Below, one piece after another: positions 2,905 through 8,289 of a stretch of DNA of 64,000 nt. Below the pieces are notes generated by a model, which worked only from the letters and a program-made list of their open reading frames with translations, was not told the DNA's origin and ran no database searches. Every line of letters starts with the position of its first letter. Position 1 is the first letter of the stretch. Position numbers and translations under genes: made by a program. The DNA comes from an uncultured Bacteroidales bacterium (GTDB taxonomy: Bacteria > Bacteroidota > Bacteroidia > Bacteroidales > F082): positions 1 through 64,000 of the forward strand of contig CAMZAM010000008.1 of assembly GCA_947304185.1 (NCBI GenBank), read 5' to 3'.

Positions 2905-3416
2905 TGCTTCCTGACAGGATTTACATCATCGGATACATGTGTTCCGGGAAGTCGTCGATTTCGCGGAAACTGGCGGCACGGTTGGGTTACGAGCCATTCG
3001 ACACCGATGATTTGTTTGAGGAGAAGTATCATATCTGCGTGCAGGATTTCTTCGAGAAATACGGTGAGGATTATTTCCGTAAGTTTGAGTCAGAGATATT
3101 GAAAAAGACAGGCGAGATGCACAAAGTGGTAGTTTCCACTGGTGGCGGAACGCCTTGTTTTTTTGACAACATGCAGTGGATGAACGACAACGGACTCACA
3201 ATCTTCGTGAAGACCAGTCCAACCACGGCATTTCACCGTATCATGAATGCTAAGCGCAAACGTCCGTTGGTGTATGGTAAGACAGAGGATGAACTACGCC
3301 AATACGTTGAAAATCACTACAATTCGCGTATGCCGATTTACGAGCAGGCGAATTTTATCGTCAAAGGCGAGAATTTCGATATCGAAGAGGTGATCGATTA
3401 TCTATCGAAGCTCTAA
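2904..3416 (+). CDS. aroK: Shikimate kinase
   Basis: Phosphorylates shikimate with ATP in the chorismate pathway. At 170 aa it has the normal family size. The P-loop is at residues 10-18 (GYMCSGKSS), the shikimate-binding DTD at 33-35, the GGG loop at 80-82, and the lid arginines lie in KRKRPLV. The start codon overlaps the yidC stop. The last 15 bases overlap the convergent rlmD gene, so the two 3' ends share sequence and no separate terminator is visible between them. Confidence 0.95.
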   Translation: MLPDRIYIIGYMCSGKSSISRKLAARLGYEPFDTDDLFEEKYHICVQDFFEKYGEDYFRKFESEILKKTGEMHKVVVSTGGGTPCFFDNMQWMNDNGLTIFVKTSPTTAFHRIMNAKRKRPLVYGKTEDELRQYVENHYNSRMPIYEQANFIVKGENFDIEEVIDYLSKL

Positions 3417-4829
3417 CAGTACCACGTTTTCGACGTGCTGGGTGTGCGGGAACATGTCGACAGGCTGCACCGCCTTGACAGCATACAAATCGTTAAGTAA
3501 TTGTAAATCACGGGCTTGCGTGGCTGGGTTGCAGCTCACGTAGACGATCTTTTTAGCTTTAATCTTCTTCAGCTGCTCGATGACTTTGTCGGCCATGCCT
3601 GCGCGCGGCGGGTCGGTGACGATGAAATCAGGTTTGCCATGCTCGGCGATGAACTCGTCGGTGAGCACCTTGGCCATGTCGCCGGCGAAAAACTCAGTAT
3701 TTGTGATGTTGTTGAACTGCTCGTTGATCTTAGCGTCGACGATGGCTTCCTCGACGTATTCGATGCCGACTACGTGCTTCACGAAACGCGAGAAATACAA
3801 GGCGATGGTGCCTGTTCCGGTGTAGAGGTCGTACATCAGCTCGTCGCCCTGAACGCTGGCGAGGTCGAATGCCGCTTTGTAGAGTCTTTCCGCCTGATAC
3901 ACATTGGTTTGGAAGAAGGAGACAGGTCCTACGCGGAACTTCAGGTCGTCGAATCCCGGGCGTGGCGACTTCATCGTTTCCACCAGATATGGCTCGCCTT
4001 TCAGACATTCGAACGGCAGGTCGGAGATGGTGTCGTTGAACTTGCTGTTGATGACCAACATCAGCGAGATTATCTGCGGGAACTGTGCCGAAAGGGCAGG
4101 GATGAGCTCGTTTCTCACTATCTCGTTTTCCTCGTTTATCACGATGATGACCATGAACTCGCCTTTGCCGTTGCAGCGGATGATAACGTTGCGCATGGTG
4201 CCTTGGTGGGCTCTCACGTTATGATATGAGAGATGGCGTTTCATAGTGAAGTCCTTGATAAACAAGCGTATATCGTTCGACGGGTCGGCCTGGAGATAAC
4301 ATTTCTCGATGTCGATCACGCGGTCGAACAGGCCTGGCAGATGGTAGCCGAAACCTTTGCAGTCCTCTTCGCCGTAGGTGCCTGCGGGAGCGCCGTCGGT
4401 GAGCCATTTGCGATTCGAAAAACTGTATTCGAGCTTGTTACGATAGTAAAACTGTTTCTCGCAGCCCAGAATCGGCATCATCTCTGGATATTCGATCTTC
4501 CCGATGCGGTCGAAGTTATCTTTGATCTGCTTCTGTTTGTAATACAGTTGCCATTGATAGTCAAGGTGTTGCCATTTACAACCGCCGCATAGGCCGAAAT
4601 GCTGGCAAACAGGTTTCACGCGCTTGTCCGACTCACGTTTTATGTTGATGATCTTGCCGTCGAAGCAATTCGATTTCTTCTTAAACACTTGAATATCAAC
4701 GATATCGCCTGGTGCGCCGAAGGGGATAAACACGACTTTCTCTTCCGGCTTGGCAATGCTCATGCCTTCCGAACCCGCGTCGATGATTTCGACGTCCTCG
4801 ATAAACTGTGGCTGCTTAATTTTTTTCAT
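3402..4829 (-). CDS. rlmD: 23S rRNA (uracil-5-)-methyltransferase, RlmD/RumA type
   Basis: Methylates a 23S rRNA uridine at C5 using SAM. The N-terminal ~60 residues look like a TRAM RNA-binding domain. Iron-sulfur cysteines are seen at C75, C81 and C84, with a fourth candidate in the EKCYLQAD segment. The SAM pocket is DLYTGTGTIALYF, and the catalytic cysteine is C433 in VSCNPATQARDL. The length of 475 aa is normal. The 3' end overlaps aroK by 15 bases. A -7 element sits four bases before the ATG, so the transcript may have almost no leader. RlmD cannot be separated from RlmC/TrmA-like paralogues with certainty from motifs alone. Confidence 0.9.
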   Translation of the reverse strand: MKKIKQPQFIEDVEIIDAGSEGMSIAKPEEKVVFIPFGAPGDIVDIQVFKKKSNCFDGKIINIKRESDKRVKPVCQHFGLCGGCKWQHLDYQWQLYYKQKQIKDNFDRIGKIEYPEMMPILGCEKQFYYRNKLEYSFSNRKWLTDGAPAGTYGEEDCKGFGYHLPGLFDRVIDIEKCYLQADPSNDIRLFIKDFTMKRHLSYHNVRAHQGTMRNVIIRCNGKGEFMVIIVINEENEIVRNELIPALSAQFPQIISLMLVINSKFNDTISDLPFECLKGEPYLVETMKSPRPGFDDLKFRVGPVSFFQTNVYQAERLYKAAFDLASVQGDELMYDLYTGTGTIALYFSRFVKHVVGIEYVEEAIVDAKINEQFNNITNTEFFAGDMAKVLTDEFIAEHGKPDFIVTDPPRAGMADKVIEQLKKIKAKKIVYVSCNPATQARDLQLLNDLYAVKAVQPVDMFPHTQHVENVVLLELR

Positions 4830-4965: not shown

Positions 4966-6747
4966 ATGAAAAAACTCCTGTTTATCGCCATTGTAGCCGT
5001 TTTAGGACTTACGGCATGCGGCCCATCGGCTGAGGAACTTGTTCAACAAGGCAAAGCTTATCTTGAAAATGACGACTGTGAGAAAGCTGTAAAATGCTTT
5101 GGAAAAGCTGTTGAGAAAGGCAATGCCAAAGCTATGTATGAGATCGGATTGATGTATTATGACGGTATATGCGTTGATAAAGACCATGAATCGGCTGCCA
5201 CTTGGTTTAAGCACGCAGCAGATATAGGATATCCTGATGCTCAAAACAAACTCGCAATGATGTATTGGGCAGGTAATGGAGTCGAAAAAAATGATGAAAA
5301 AGCTGTAAAATGGGCGCAGTTGGCATTGGGAATAGGCGAGTATTTAGGGTCGCATTATTGGGAATCGTATTATGTATTAGGCATTTGTTATGTTACAGGA
5401 AAAGTGTTGCCTCAAGACAATAAAAATGGGGTGAAGTATTTGCAAAAAGCAGCTGATATGAATATCCTTGTTGCACCTGTTGCAGATAAAATACTTCTTC
5501 CTCTTTATCTGGAAGGCGAGGGCGTTCAAGACGACGAAAAAGCCATTACGGCGTGCTGTGGAGTAGAATTAAATATCGATAGAGCTGAAGCCATGAATAG
5601 CATAGGTATGATGTATTATAATGGTGAAGGAGTCGATAAAAACACGACGAAGGCATTTAATTGGTTTAAAAGAGCTGCAAACGCAGGTAATGCTACAGCA
5701 CAATACAACACGGCTGTTGCATATTATTATGGTATAGGTGTCAATAAAAGTCTGACTGAAAATAGAAAATGGTTGAAAATGGCTGCGGAGAACGGAAATG
5801 CTGATGCACAGTTTAATCTTGGAGGGGCGTACATTACTGGTGTAGGTGTGCCTCAAAATATGACCGAAGCCAAATATTGGCTGCAAAAAGCCGCCGACCA
5901 AGGACATAAGGAAGCTAAAGAAGAATTGGAAGCGTTGAGAAAAGTGGAAAAAGTTAGGAGAGACAAAGAAGCCGCTGAAAAAAAAGCTTTGCAAGACAAA
6001 GAAGCTAGTGAAAAAAAAGAGAAAGAAAAAGCAAAAATAGGAGTTTTTGATAAAAAAACTTTCACAGTAGATGGTGTTTCAATTGAAATGGTTGGGGTTC
6101 AAGGCGGCACATTTACAATGGGAGGAACCTCGGAACAGGGCAGAGATGCTGAAAGTGACGAAAAAACTACACATAATGTAGTTTTGAATGATTATTATAT
6201 TGGGAAGTTTGAGGTGACTCAGGCACTGTGGGTGGCCGTTATGGGAAATAATCCTTCTGGATTTCAAGGCGACAATCTGCCTGTTGTATGGGTCGGTTGG
6301 GAGGTTGTTCAAGAATTTATAAGGAAGTTGAACCAGAAAACGGGTGCTAGGTTCCGTTTGCCAACAGAGGCTGAATGGGAGTATGCCGCGAGAGGCGGAA
6401 ACATAAGCAAAGGATATAAATATAGCGGAAGCAATAATATTGGTGATGTTGCATGGTACGACGGCAATAGTGGTGGCAAGATTCATCAAATCGGGACAAA
6501 AGCACCAAACGAACTGGGTGTTTATGATATGACTGGCAACGTTTCGGAGTGGTGCCAAGACTGGTACGGCGAATACAGTGGCTCAATCCAGCTCAACCCG
6601 AATGGGGCATATTCAGGCTCATACCGCGTGTATCGTGGTGGCTGTTGTACCAACTTCGCGAGGTACTGCAGAGTGTCGGATAGGGACTACGGCAAACCAG
6701 GCTACGGGGACAGCTACCGCGGCTTTCGCCTTGCCATGAGCTATTAG
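4966..6747 (+). CDS. Sel1-repeat / FGE-sulfatase-fold lipoprotein; candidate DGR target
   Basis: The 593-aa protein starts with a lipoprotein signal (lipobox LTAC, Cys at about 18). It then has Sel1-like repeats with AMYEIGLMYYDG-type motifs (about 28-330), a short Lys/Glu-rich coiled-coil linker (about 330-370), and a formylglycine-generating-enzyme/C-type-lectin-fold domain (about 372-593) with FRLPTEAEWEYAARGG and MTGNVSEWCQDW. It probably sits in the outer membrane as a binding or scaffold protein. The fold is shared with FGE, but an enzymatic role is not indicated. The last ~45 residues carry Tyr, Asp, Gly, Ser, Cys, Thr, Asn and Phe at regularly placed sites within a fixed RV.RGG...ARxCRVSxR....P.......GFRL frame, the pattern of a DGR variable region. 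The usual RGGSW is RGGCC here. Confidence 0.85.
   Translation: MKKLLFIAIVAVLGLTACGPSAEELVQQGKAYLENDDCEKAVKCFGKAVEKGNAKAMYEIGLMYYDGICVDKDHESAATWFKHAADIGYPDAQNKLAMMYWAGNGVEKNDEKAVKWAQLALGIGEYLGSHYWESYYVLGICYVTGKVLPQDNKNGVKYLQKAADMNILVAPVADKILLPLYLEGEGVQDDEKAITACCGVELNIDRAEAMNSIGMMYYNGEGVDKNTTKAFNWFKRAANAGNATAQYNTAVAYYYGIGVNKSLTENRKWLKMAAENGNADAQFNLGGAYITGVGVPQNMTEAKYWLQKAADQGHKEAKEELEALRKVEKVRRDKEAAEKKALQDKEASEKKEKEKAKIGVFDKKTFTVDGVSIEMVGVQGGTFTMGGTSEQGRDAESDEKTTHNVVLNDYYIGKFEVTQALWVAVMGNNPSGFQGDNLPVVWVGWEVVQEFIRKLNQKTGARFRLPTEAEWEYAARGGNISKGYKYSGSNNIGDVAWYDGNSGGKIHQIGTKAPNELGVYDMTGNVSEWCQDWYGEYSGSIQLNPNGAYSGSYRVYRGGCCTNFARYCRVSDRDYGKPGYGDSYRGFRLAMSY
6613..6742 (+). other. Candidate DGR variable region (VR)
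   Basis: This is the 3' end of the Sel1/FGE lipoprotein gene. Within residues 553-584, 17 positions (Y553, Y556, C560, C561, T562, N563, F564, Y567, D572, D574, Y575, G576, G579, Y580, D582, S583, Y584) have codons ending in C or T. Each could arise from AAC or AAT by changes at adenines only. The residues between them are the conserved scaffold of the fold. The region ends with GC-rich CGCGGCTTTCGCC, where an initiation-of-homing site would be expected. No template repeat or reverse transcriptase was seen in the window, so this is a candidate that would be served in trans. Confidence 0.5.
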
Positions 6748-6795
6748 TGTAACGAAAAAACAGATGTAGAAACGTTATAAACTATAAATTGTATT

Positions 6796-8289
6796 ATGAA
6801 AATTCCGGACATTCAATCCGCTCGGGCAGCAGATGCTTATACCATTGAAAATGAGCTGATTAGCTCAGTCGATTTGATGGAGCGTGCTGCCACACAAATA
6901 TATTTTTGGCTGATGAAGAAGCTGAAAACCAAGGAAGTCTCGATAAAAATCTTCTGTGGTATGGGCAACAATGGCGGCGATGGTTTGGCTTTGGCACGCT
7001 TGCTGGCAACAAATGATATCTTTGCCCAGGTTTATATCGTTCATGTGAGTGACAAATTCAGTCATGATGCTGAGGTGAATTATCAGCGTTTGAAGGAGAT
7101 TCCGGATGTGCTGATGTTTGATATTTTCTCGAAAGACGATTTTCCGAAGATTTCAGACGATGAAATAATTGTTGACGCACTGTTTGGTTCCGGTTTGAGC
7201 CGTCCGCTGGATGGATTGGCGGCGGAATTGGTGACTCATTTAAATGATAATCAAGCAGTTAGAATTGCTATTGACATTGCGTCGGGATTGAATGGCGATT
7301 CGATAAACAACTGCGGTGTGATTTTCAGACCGGATTACACTGTGTCGATGCAATTCCCGAAAATGGCGTTTCTGTATCCCGAAAATGAGCCGTTTGTAGG
7401 AAAATGGGAAGTCTTGGACATCAAAATCCATCCAGATTATATTGAAAATTTGGAGACAGCGAATTTTTACACAACAGCCGATGTTGTGAGGCCGTTGCTG
7501 CACAAGCGCGGCAAACATTCGCACAAAGGCACTTATGGTCATGCGTTGCTGATAGCCGGCTCGACTGGCAAAACGGGGGCCGCGTTGTTGGCCTCGGAGG
7601 CCTGTTTGCGCTCAGGAGTAGGCCTATTGACCACACATCTGCCGAAGTTGGCGATGTTGCCGTTGCAGGTTTATCTGCCGGAGGCGATGATAAGCGTTGA
7701 TGAGTCGGAGAATTGTTTCTCGCAAGTTCCTGATTTGCAACCATATAACGCAATAGGAGTGGGGCCTGGATTGGGCAAGGCTGAAGAGACTGTAAATGCT
7801 TTAAAAAGTCTCATTCAAGAGGCTCGGGTGCCAATGGTTCTTGACGCAGATGCTTTGAATATCATTTCTGAAAACAAAACATGGCTGGCGTTTTTGCCTG
7901 AAAACACTATCATCACGCCGCATCCGAAGGAGTTTGAGCGATTGTTTGGCAAGACCGACAACTCGCAGCAACGTCTTGAACTTCAGCGGGAGATGTCTGC
8001 CAAGTATAGGATCATAATAGTTTTGAAAGGAGCTAACACCTCGATAGCTTTCCCGAACGGCAGCTGTTTCTTCAATTCGACTGGCAACCCAGGCATGGCA
8101 ACAGCTGGCAGCGGCGATGTCTTGACAGGCATTATCTTGTCGCTTTTAGCTCAGCGTTACACTCCTGAAGAGGCAGCAATCATTGGCGTTTTCATGCACG
8201 GCAGAGCAGGCGACAAAGCCGCCGAAAAGCTTGGCATGGAGTCGATGATAGCTGGAGATATCGTAAAAAAACTGGATTTTAGAATTTAG
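6796..8289 (+). CDS. nnr: Bifunctional NAD(P)HX epimerase / ADP- or ATP-dependent dehydratase
   Basis: Repairs hydrated NADH and NADPH. The N-terminal YjeF_N epimerase domain (about 1-215) contains GMGNNGGDGLALARLL. The C-terminal carbohydrate-kinase-like dehydratase domain (about 225-497) contains KGTYGHALLIAGSTGKTGAA and the catalytic GSGD at 438-441. The 497-aa length is that of the fused bacterial enzyme. It lies 48 bases after the Sel1/FGE gene and is followed by the YgjP-like gene on the same strand. No promoter is obvious. Confidence 0.95.
   Translation: MKIPDIQSARAADAYTIENELISSVDLMERAATQIYFWLMKKLKTKEVSIKIFCGMGNNGGDGLALARLLATNDIFAQVYIVHVSDKFSHDAEVNYQRLKEIPDVLMFDIFSKDDFPKISDDEIIVDALFGSGLSRPLDGLAAELVTHLNDNQAVRIAIDIASGLNGDSINNCGVIFRPDYTVSMQFPKMAFLYPENEPFVGKWEVLDIKIHPDYIENLETANFYTTADVVRPLLHKRGKHSHKGTYGHALLIAGSTGKTGAALLASEACLRSGVGLLTTHLPKLAMLPLQVYLPEAMISVDESENCFSQVPDLQPYNAIGVGPGLGKAEETVNALKSLIQEARVPMVLDADALNIISENKTWLAFLPENTIITPHPKEFERLFGKTDNSQQRLELQREMSAKYRIIIVLKGANTSIAFPNGSCFFNSTGNPGMATAGSGDVLTGIILSLLAQRYTPEEAAIIGVFMHGRAGDKAAEKLGMESMIAGDIVKKLDFRI

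Follow-up and report, generated by a model that had tools for sequence, protein, structure and literature searches.

A probable orphaned target of a diversity-generating retroelement in the genome of an uncultured Bacteroidales bacterium

The C-terminus of a lipoprotein gene in an uncultured Bacteroidales bacterium, presumably of the gut, is probably (we put it at about 0.72) the variable region (VR) of a diversity-generating retroelement (DGR) target, which would have been written in an ancestor by a DGR of the type with an FGE target and an HRDC accessory protein (FGE/HRDC), and which is now orphaned and probably frozen. The gene lies within the window, that is, the whole stretch of 64,000 nucleotides analysed here, and the genome concerned (G000) comprises 2.08 Mb in 36 contigs, is 98.8% complete and is not closed. 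By sequence comparison, the descent of the VR from a DGR is well supported, while current activity in trans is not supported. The features discussed below are as follows.

3402..4829, minus strand: left neighbour, member of the ancestral gene pair (ORF and relatives' loci), which we take to be RlmD/RumA-like
4966..6747, plus strand: target gene, a Sel1-repeat/FGE-domain lipoprotein of 593 aa (ORF and Pfam)
5008..5019, plus strand: LTAC, residues 15-18 (by eye in the sequence), presumably an SPII lipobox
5584..5691, plus strand: top-scoring Sel1 stretch, residues 207-242 (Pfam)
6085..6735, plus strand: FGE-sulfatase (C-type-lectin) domain, residues 374-590 (Pfam; best PDB sequence match 2y3c)
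6616..6735, plus strand: putative VR by descent, ungapped over 6616-6729 against eight sister-genome templates, with a 3' end unlike the seven templates measured
6748..6795, no strand: 48-bp gap to the next gene, without YTAAGC after the VR (sequence)
6796..8289, plus strand: right neighbour (ORF and relatives' loci), presumably NnrD/E-like

The target gene and the search for its machinery

Six Sel1 stretches were identified in the target protein by Pfam, and the top PDB sequence match of its FGE domain is 2y3c, variable protein 1 of Treponema denticola (E 1.5e-36). Surface display and ligand binding may be expected from the lipobox and the TvpA-like fold. An AlphaFold model of the FGE domain was discarded, with a mean pLDDT of 56 and residues 141-210 below 50.

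A sequence-only reading of this DNA had pointed out 17 NNC/NNT codons in the C-terminal region and RGGCC in place of RGGSW, and the codons stand in the sequence as described, all 17 ending in C or T. Its own caveat that codon form is weak evidence was well placed: C4, one of the paralogues among the five FGE genes of G000, is Y-ended at 14 of 15 codons at the VR sites, yet its non-A identity (identity at template positions other than adenine) to the best template is 0.51. The codon pattern of the VR exceeds chance on measures beyond codon form. For example, 22 of the 45 codons from residue 549 onwards have C in the third position, compared with 85 of the 548 before. No second copy that is fully template-compatible was found within the 64-kb window.

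The absence of a local reverse transcriptase (RT), also asserted in that reading, was confirmed, since there is no RVT_1 match and the gap of only 48 bp to the next gene leaves no space downstream for an RT, a template repeat (TR) or a cassette remnant. It had further supposed that the system acts in trans here, for which G000 offers no counterpart: neither RVT_1 nor a two-sequence DGR-RT profile (E <= 1e-15) nor an eight-sequence DGR-RT profile (E <= 10) matches anything in this genome. When the template of G091 was used as a DNA query, nothing better than E 0.01 was found in G000; the same query recovers itself and seven other sister templates at E <= 1.9e-27. A match to the HRDC accessory protein in G000 was rejected as a DGR accessory, being a single match in a 742-aa ORF with similar matches in other genomes; this ORF is presumably RecQ. 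Neither the RT nor the template nor the HRDC-type accessory gene of an active DGR was thus detected in G000, nearly complete and unclosed as it is. The sequence-only reading had held that a template beside a DGR-type RT should be sought, and that their absence from the genome, together with strain differences not mapping to template adenines, would count against it. The search yielded eight cassettes in six of 99 sister genomes and none in G000, so that the first half of this counter-evidence was encountered.

RT matches were also found in two of 80 genome-contig loci (L189 and L196), and FGE matches in four of 83 viral-contig loci (L341, L342, L343 and L261). L261 carries an RT, a weak accessory match and an FGE domain that is 35% identical. 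On L341, a viral contig of 136,532 bp, an FGE domain 62% identical to that of the window has a VR-like C-terminus with a non-A identity of 0.84, and no RT match is present within the stretch examined. The FGE homologues of phages and plasmids are all below 60% identity.

DGR cassettes of the genus and their relation to the variable region

The sister set consists of the 99 same-genus genomes searched, six of which contain eight complete DGRs, each with an FGE target, an accessory gene, an RT and an adjacent template. The RTs are frames of 328-362 aa that match the DGR-RT profile at E < 1e-100, and the top PDB match of the sister RTs is the chain 8ub7 'Reverse transcriptase' (E 9.3e-58), which we assume to be that of BPP-1. 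The FGE targets are 52-70% identical to the FGE domain of the window, and a repeat of about 130 bp of the FGE gene end adjoins each of the eight RTs. HRDC was found in both of the accessory proteins scanned by Pfam (two of the eight), and all eight align together, with 36-69% identity to the first. As for the base mismatches between TR and VR, 126 of 134 fall at template adenines, six gap positions being left out. Judged by their sequences, the FGE/HRDC cassettes of the genus are ordinary DGRs. The earlier assignment of the window C-terminus to the FGE/C-type-lectin class of DGR variable regions agrees with its close homologues being DGR targets with adenine-rich templates, as well as with 2y3c as the best PDB match.

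Two further observations concern the cassettes of the genus. The VR of the core target in G009 (L074, 5167-5296) is one base longer than its template, and the frame of the last FGE residues is shifted. In addition, there is a second DGR type in L124 (G077:C15), L125 (G090:C5) and L126 (G099:C45), with RT frames of 446, 446 and 355 aa, respectively, where TR/VR pairs of 115 bp adjoin the RT and 95-100% of the mismatches are at template A.

The window VR aligns without gaps over 114 bp with each of the eight templates, and the mismatches amount to 18-22 of 33-37 template adenines and 13-21 of 77-81 other positions. The templates themselves differ from one another at 7-20 non-A positions, a range that the window overlaps, and consequently the VR is about as close to the templates as they are to each other. 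The gene therefore resembles a DGR target in two respects, namely a putative C-terminal VR in a protein of predicted FGE/C-type-lectin fold and differences concentrated at the adenines of sister templates, there being no template of its own. The best template gives a non-A identity of 64/77 (0.83), which is too low for the template that wrote the window VR to be among those found. For the own-genome paralogues C2, C22 and C4, the corresponding values are 0.56, 0.56 and 0.51, C3 having no row. When 60 distinct FGE C-termini were ordered by their non-A identity, the window came 22nd; C3 and two core targets, G085:C39 and that of G009 with its frame-shifted VR, have no row in this ordering.

The third bases also follow the templates. 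Where a template has AAC/AAT, its third base is shared by the window in 11-14 of 14 Y-ended codons, with simulated p values of 0.007 to <5e-6 under the C:T use of the gene itself and of 0.03 to 6e-5 under that of the other genes in the window; in the FGE body, the third bases of same-residue codons agree at 36-47%. Against all eight cassettes, non-A identity is higher for the VR than for the gene body, with p < 0.05 for seven; for the nearest cassette, G114b, the difference (0.83 vs 0.75) is not significant (p 0.14).

The earlier proposal that all 17 sites are derivable from AAC/AAT holds for most of them. Template codons are AAC/AAT at 13 sites in all eight templates and at site 556 in five of eight. 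The proposal fails at site 560 (AGC in six templates and AGT in two), site 579 (GAC in seven and AGC in one) and site 561, which is TGG in all eight, so the TGT there is not derived from adenine, just as had been cautioned for the case of a TGG template. Site 561 and the VR changes to A (TCA, AGA, AAA) are not explicable as DGR edits of the known templates.

In the FGE/HRDC family, unlinked genes are served as well, since the unlinked targets G001:C41 and G064:C28 match the templates of their own genomes with 0/81 non-A mismatches each and with 19/33 and 13/33 mismatches at A, respectively. A template-like match (E <= 1e-5) occurs in 18 genomes, 12 of which have no RT of the FGE/HRDC type, and in 11 of these 12 (G122 left out) it lies inside an FGE gene. 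Nine of the 12 are less than 95% complete, so that some RT absences may be gaps; the three with at least 95% are G092, G099 and G102, the row of G102 in the VR-template comparison being poorly anchored (49/81). Fresh-looking VRs for which no matching RT was found are present in G096 (86% complete) and G099 (98%), where they agree with a foreign template at 76/77 and 79/81 non-A positions, respectively. The VR of G001:C45a fits a foreign template (G085b, 79/80) better than its own. In G096:C36 (L347), the VR of which is 76/77 non-A identical to the G114b template, the 3' flank resembles by eye that of the template itself and might be a copy of the template side.

The 3' end of the variable region and an inverted flank

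Over the 18 bases that follow GFRL, VR and TR are identical at 15-18 positions within seven cassettes (G091 left out), while the window agrees with the seven sister templates at 5-9. The element YTAAGC (CTAAGC, TTAAGC, GTAAGC) follows the VR in 18 of 27 VR-class targets, defined by a non-A identity of at least 0.77, against a background of 159 in 5000 random 70-nt stretches. It is missing from the other nine, the window included, and from all five lower-scoring rows (0/5); further loci have it in 10 of 12 cases, one of the 12 being already counted. It should be noted that G064:C21 also lacks the element, yet its VR is 78/81 like the template of its own genome, and therefore a missing YTAAGC is no proof of disuse. 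In the window, both the VR/TR 3' end shared in active DGRs and the target element are absent. A hairpin after the window VR was considered and rejected, with a DNA fold z of -0.13 and no short-loop hairpin.

In all eight cassettes (L073, L074, L118-L123), matching DNA follows the TR and the VR in opposite orientations, the stretch 3' of the TR being an inverted copy of that 3' of the VR. For each cassette, 0 of 500 shuffles were as good, the weakest case being G085b with 12 nt. When 60-nt flanks were compared, the own TR/VR pair was the best of its row in seven of eight (G009 excepted), and none of the other pairings of the eight inverted flanks, 40,320 in all, scores as high as the true one. 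With direct orientation the true pairing again ranks somewhat above most, with 548 of 40,320 as good and scores of 115 vs 239 inverted. The 3' flank of the window gives an inverted score no better than that of unrelated pairs.

A short-loop hairpin after the VR was found in none of the eight genus cassettes. Among 75 further TR/VR pairs, taken from 73 loci, three pairs of which come from the genus and several loci of which are near-copies, 29 have the hairpin, seven have the inverted flank (cut-off at most 1/200 shuffles) and one has both; with a longer VR flank, two of the 75 beat every shuffle. The inverted TR/VR flank was not found described in the literature listings searched or in the available portions of PMC3240598, PMC4372165, PMC4891356, PMC12875486, PMC11792537, PMC10907252 and PMC3521204.

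Tentatively, and at somewhat under even odds, we suggest that the FGE/HRDC DGRs of the genus recognise their targets not by a hairpin of the BPP-1 type, but by a 3' flank of the TR, reverse-complementary to an element of about 12-39 nt after the VR and matched to it in each cassette. The VR and this element would then form a portable address tag, allowing service in trans and movement between genomes and leading to orphaning when the tag decays, as may have happened in the window. Pairing might take place between the flank of the TR RNA and the sense strand downstream of the VR; alternatively, the 5' end of the cDNA could match the DNA there. The flanks would likewise stay matched if one were repeatedly copied from the other. 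If the inverted flank is a recognition tag, retrohoming could be tested directly at the step concerned, which is still called incompletely understood in the part available of a 2026 paper (PMC12875486).

Origin of the window gene and comparison with known systems

No FGE match was found beside the right neighbour in any of 29 relatives' loci, where the left neighbour is within the stretch in 10 and outside it in 19. The two neighbours are at most 430 bp apart, without an FGE gene, in G032, G075, G077, G099, G102 and G085, and 0.5-1.3 kb apart in G063, G095, G076 and G097; the right neighbour is 87% identical in G032 and G075. Since the target gene stands alone between neighbours that are close in relatives, it was either gained as a single target or left by clean loss of a cassette. 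About 800 bp of other DNA lies between the same two neighbour genes in G063:C12 (L235), and the site may therefore be an insertion hot spot. The intergenic segment 4857-4915 contains a repeat-like sequence (CCTCCGTCATTTCGA...), which recurs in the empty site of G032 and has one match in the window. In a tree of FGE bodies with 48 rows, which includes six of the eight core targets and omits rows below 45% identity or without the motifs, the row nearest to the window gene is the G114:C8 core target (body identity 75%), and the branch leading to the window gene has a length of 0.37, which is long, and is inside no starred set.

We propose the following history, by comparison with the cassettes and templates observed in sister genomes. 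A DGR of the FGE/HRDC family would have copied its template into adenine-mutated cDNA, which would have replaced the last ~115 bp of the ancestral gene. The gene would have been either gained alone as a target or left behind by a cleanly lost cassette. With no RT or template detected and with a VR 3' end and flank unlike those of served targets, we consider the patch to be probably frozen at present, so that the orphan target would retain one ligand-binding surface. This frozen state is no more than probable, resting as it does on absence from one 36-contig assembly.

Could the VR still be rewritten by an RT and a template that are in the cell, but outside the assembly or on an unbinned mobile element? 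The unlinked served targets in G001 and G064 and the fresh VRs of G096 (76/77) and G099 (79/81) favour such service, as does the fact that hypervariable loci break metagenome assemblies. We consider it unlikely, as a genome 98.8% complete yields no RT match even at E <= 10 and no template, the window agrees at 5-9 of 18 bases in the 3' end where cassettes agree internally at 15-18, the YTAAGC element is missing and the end branch of 0.37 is long. The gene may also have been taken alone from a DGR-bearing species and never have been a DGR target in its own lineage, an account that overlaps with our preferred one and differs in where the editing occurred. The lack of an FGE match at this site in all 29 relatives' loci and VRs that fit foreign templates, e.g., G001:C45a with 79/80 to G085b, are consistent with it, but no donor was found and the body shares just 75% identity with the core target nearest to it; we hold it as a minority reading, doubtful but the least improbable of the three alternatives.

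Very improbable, in our judgement, is an ordinary FGE-fold lipoprotein whose loops are under normal diversifying selection and resemble a DGR target by fold alone. Other FGE paralogues do vary at the same sites, and C4 is Y-ended at 14/15. However, fold alone would not account for the gap-free DNA alignment and third-base agreement with the templates, for third positions that become C-rich towards the VR, or for own paralogues that reach only 0.51-0.56 non-A identity. An ancestral DGR target, now orphaned, remains our preferred explanation.

Template-adenine mutagenesis is shared with the DGR of Bordetella phage BPP-1, in which the element after the VR is a short-loop hairpin, according to the part available of PMC3240598. 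That system has Avd together with the hairpin, whereas the genus cassettes have the HRDC-type accessory, the hairpin in 0/8 and the inverted flank in 8/8. Among the DGRs of the human microbiome, FGE-sulfatase is the second commonest Pfam domain of predicted targets, with 42 proteins, as far as the available part of PMC4159848 tells; those targets were predicted within DGR systems, unlike the window gene, for which no template was found in its genome.

The present results suggest that, in one genus, what DGR hypermutation has produced persists longer than the machinery itself, given that 12 of the 18 genomes with a template-like match show no RT of the FGE/HRDC type, in assemblies that are often incomplete. 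Targets of this sort would escape surveys in which the RT is the starting point. Treponema denticola, which belongs to another phylum, has the variable protein that is the best PDB match of the window FGE domain. Its family, as described in the part available of PMC4891356, also includes core cassettes with HRDC proteins, remote targets and leftover targets. The window target differs from those of T. denticola in its fusion with Sel1 repeats and in having no known template within a few non-A changes. T. denticola isolates without RT and TR keep their target genes, called leftovers by the authors (PMC4891356, in part), and the orphan target proposed for the window would therefore be an instance of a known phenomenon.
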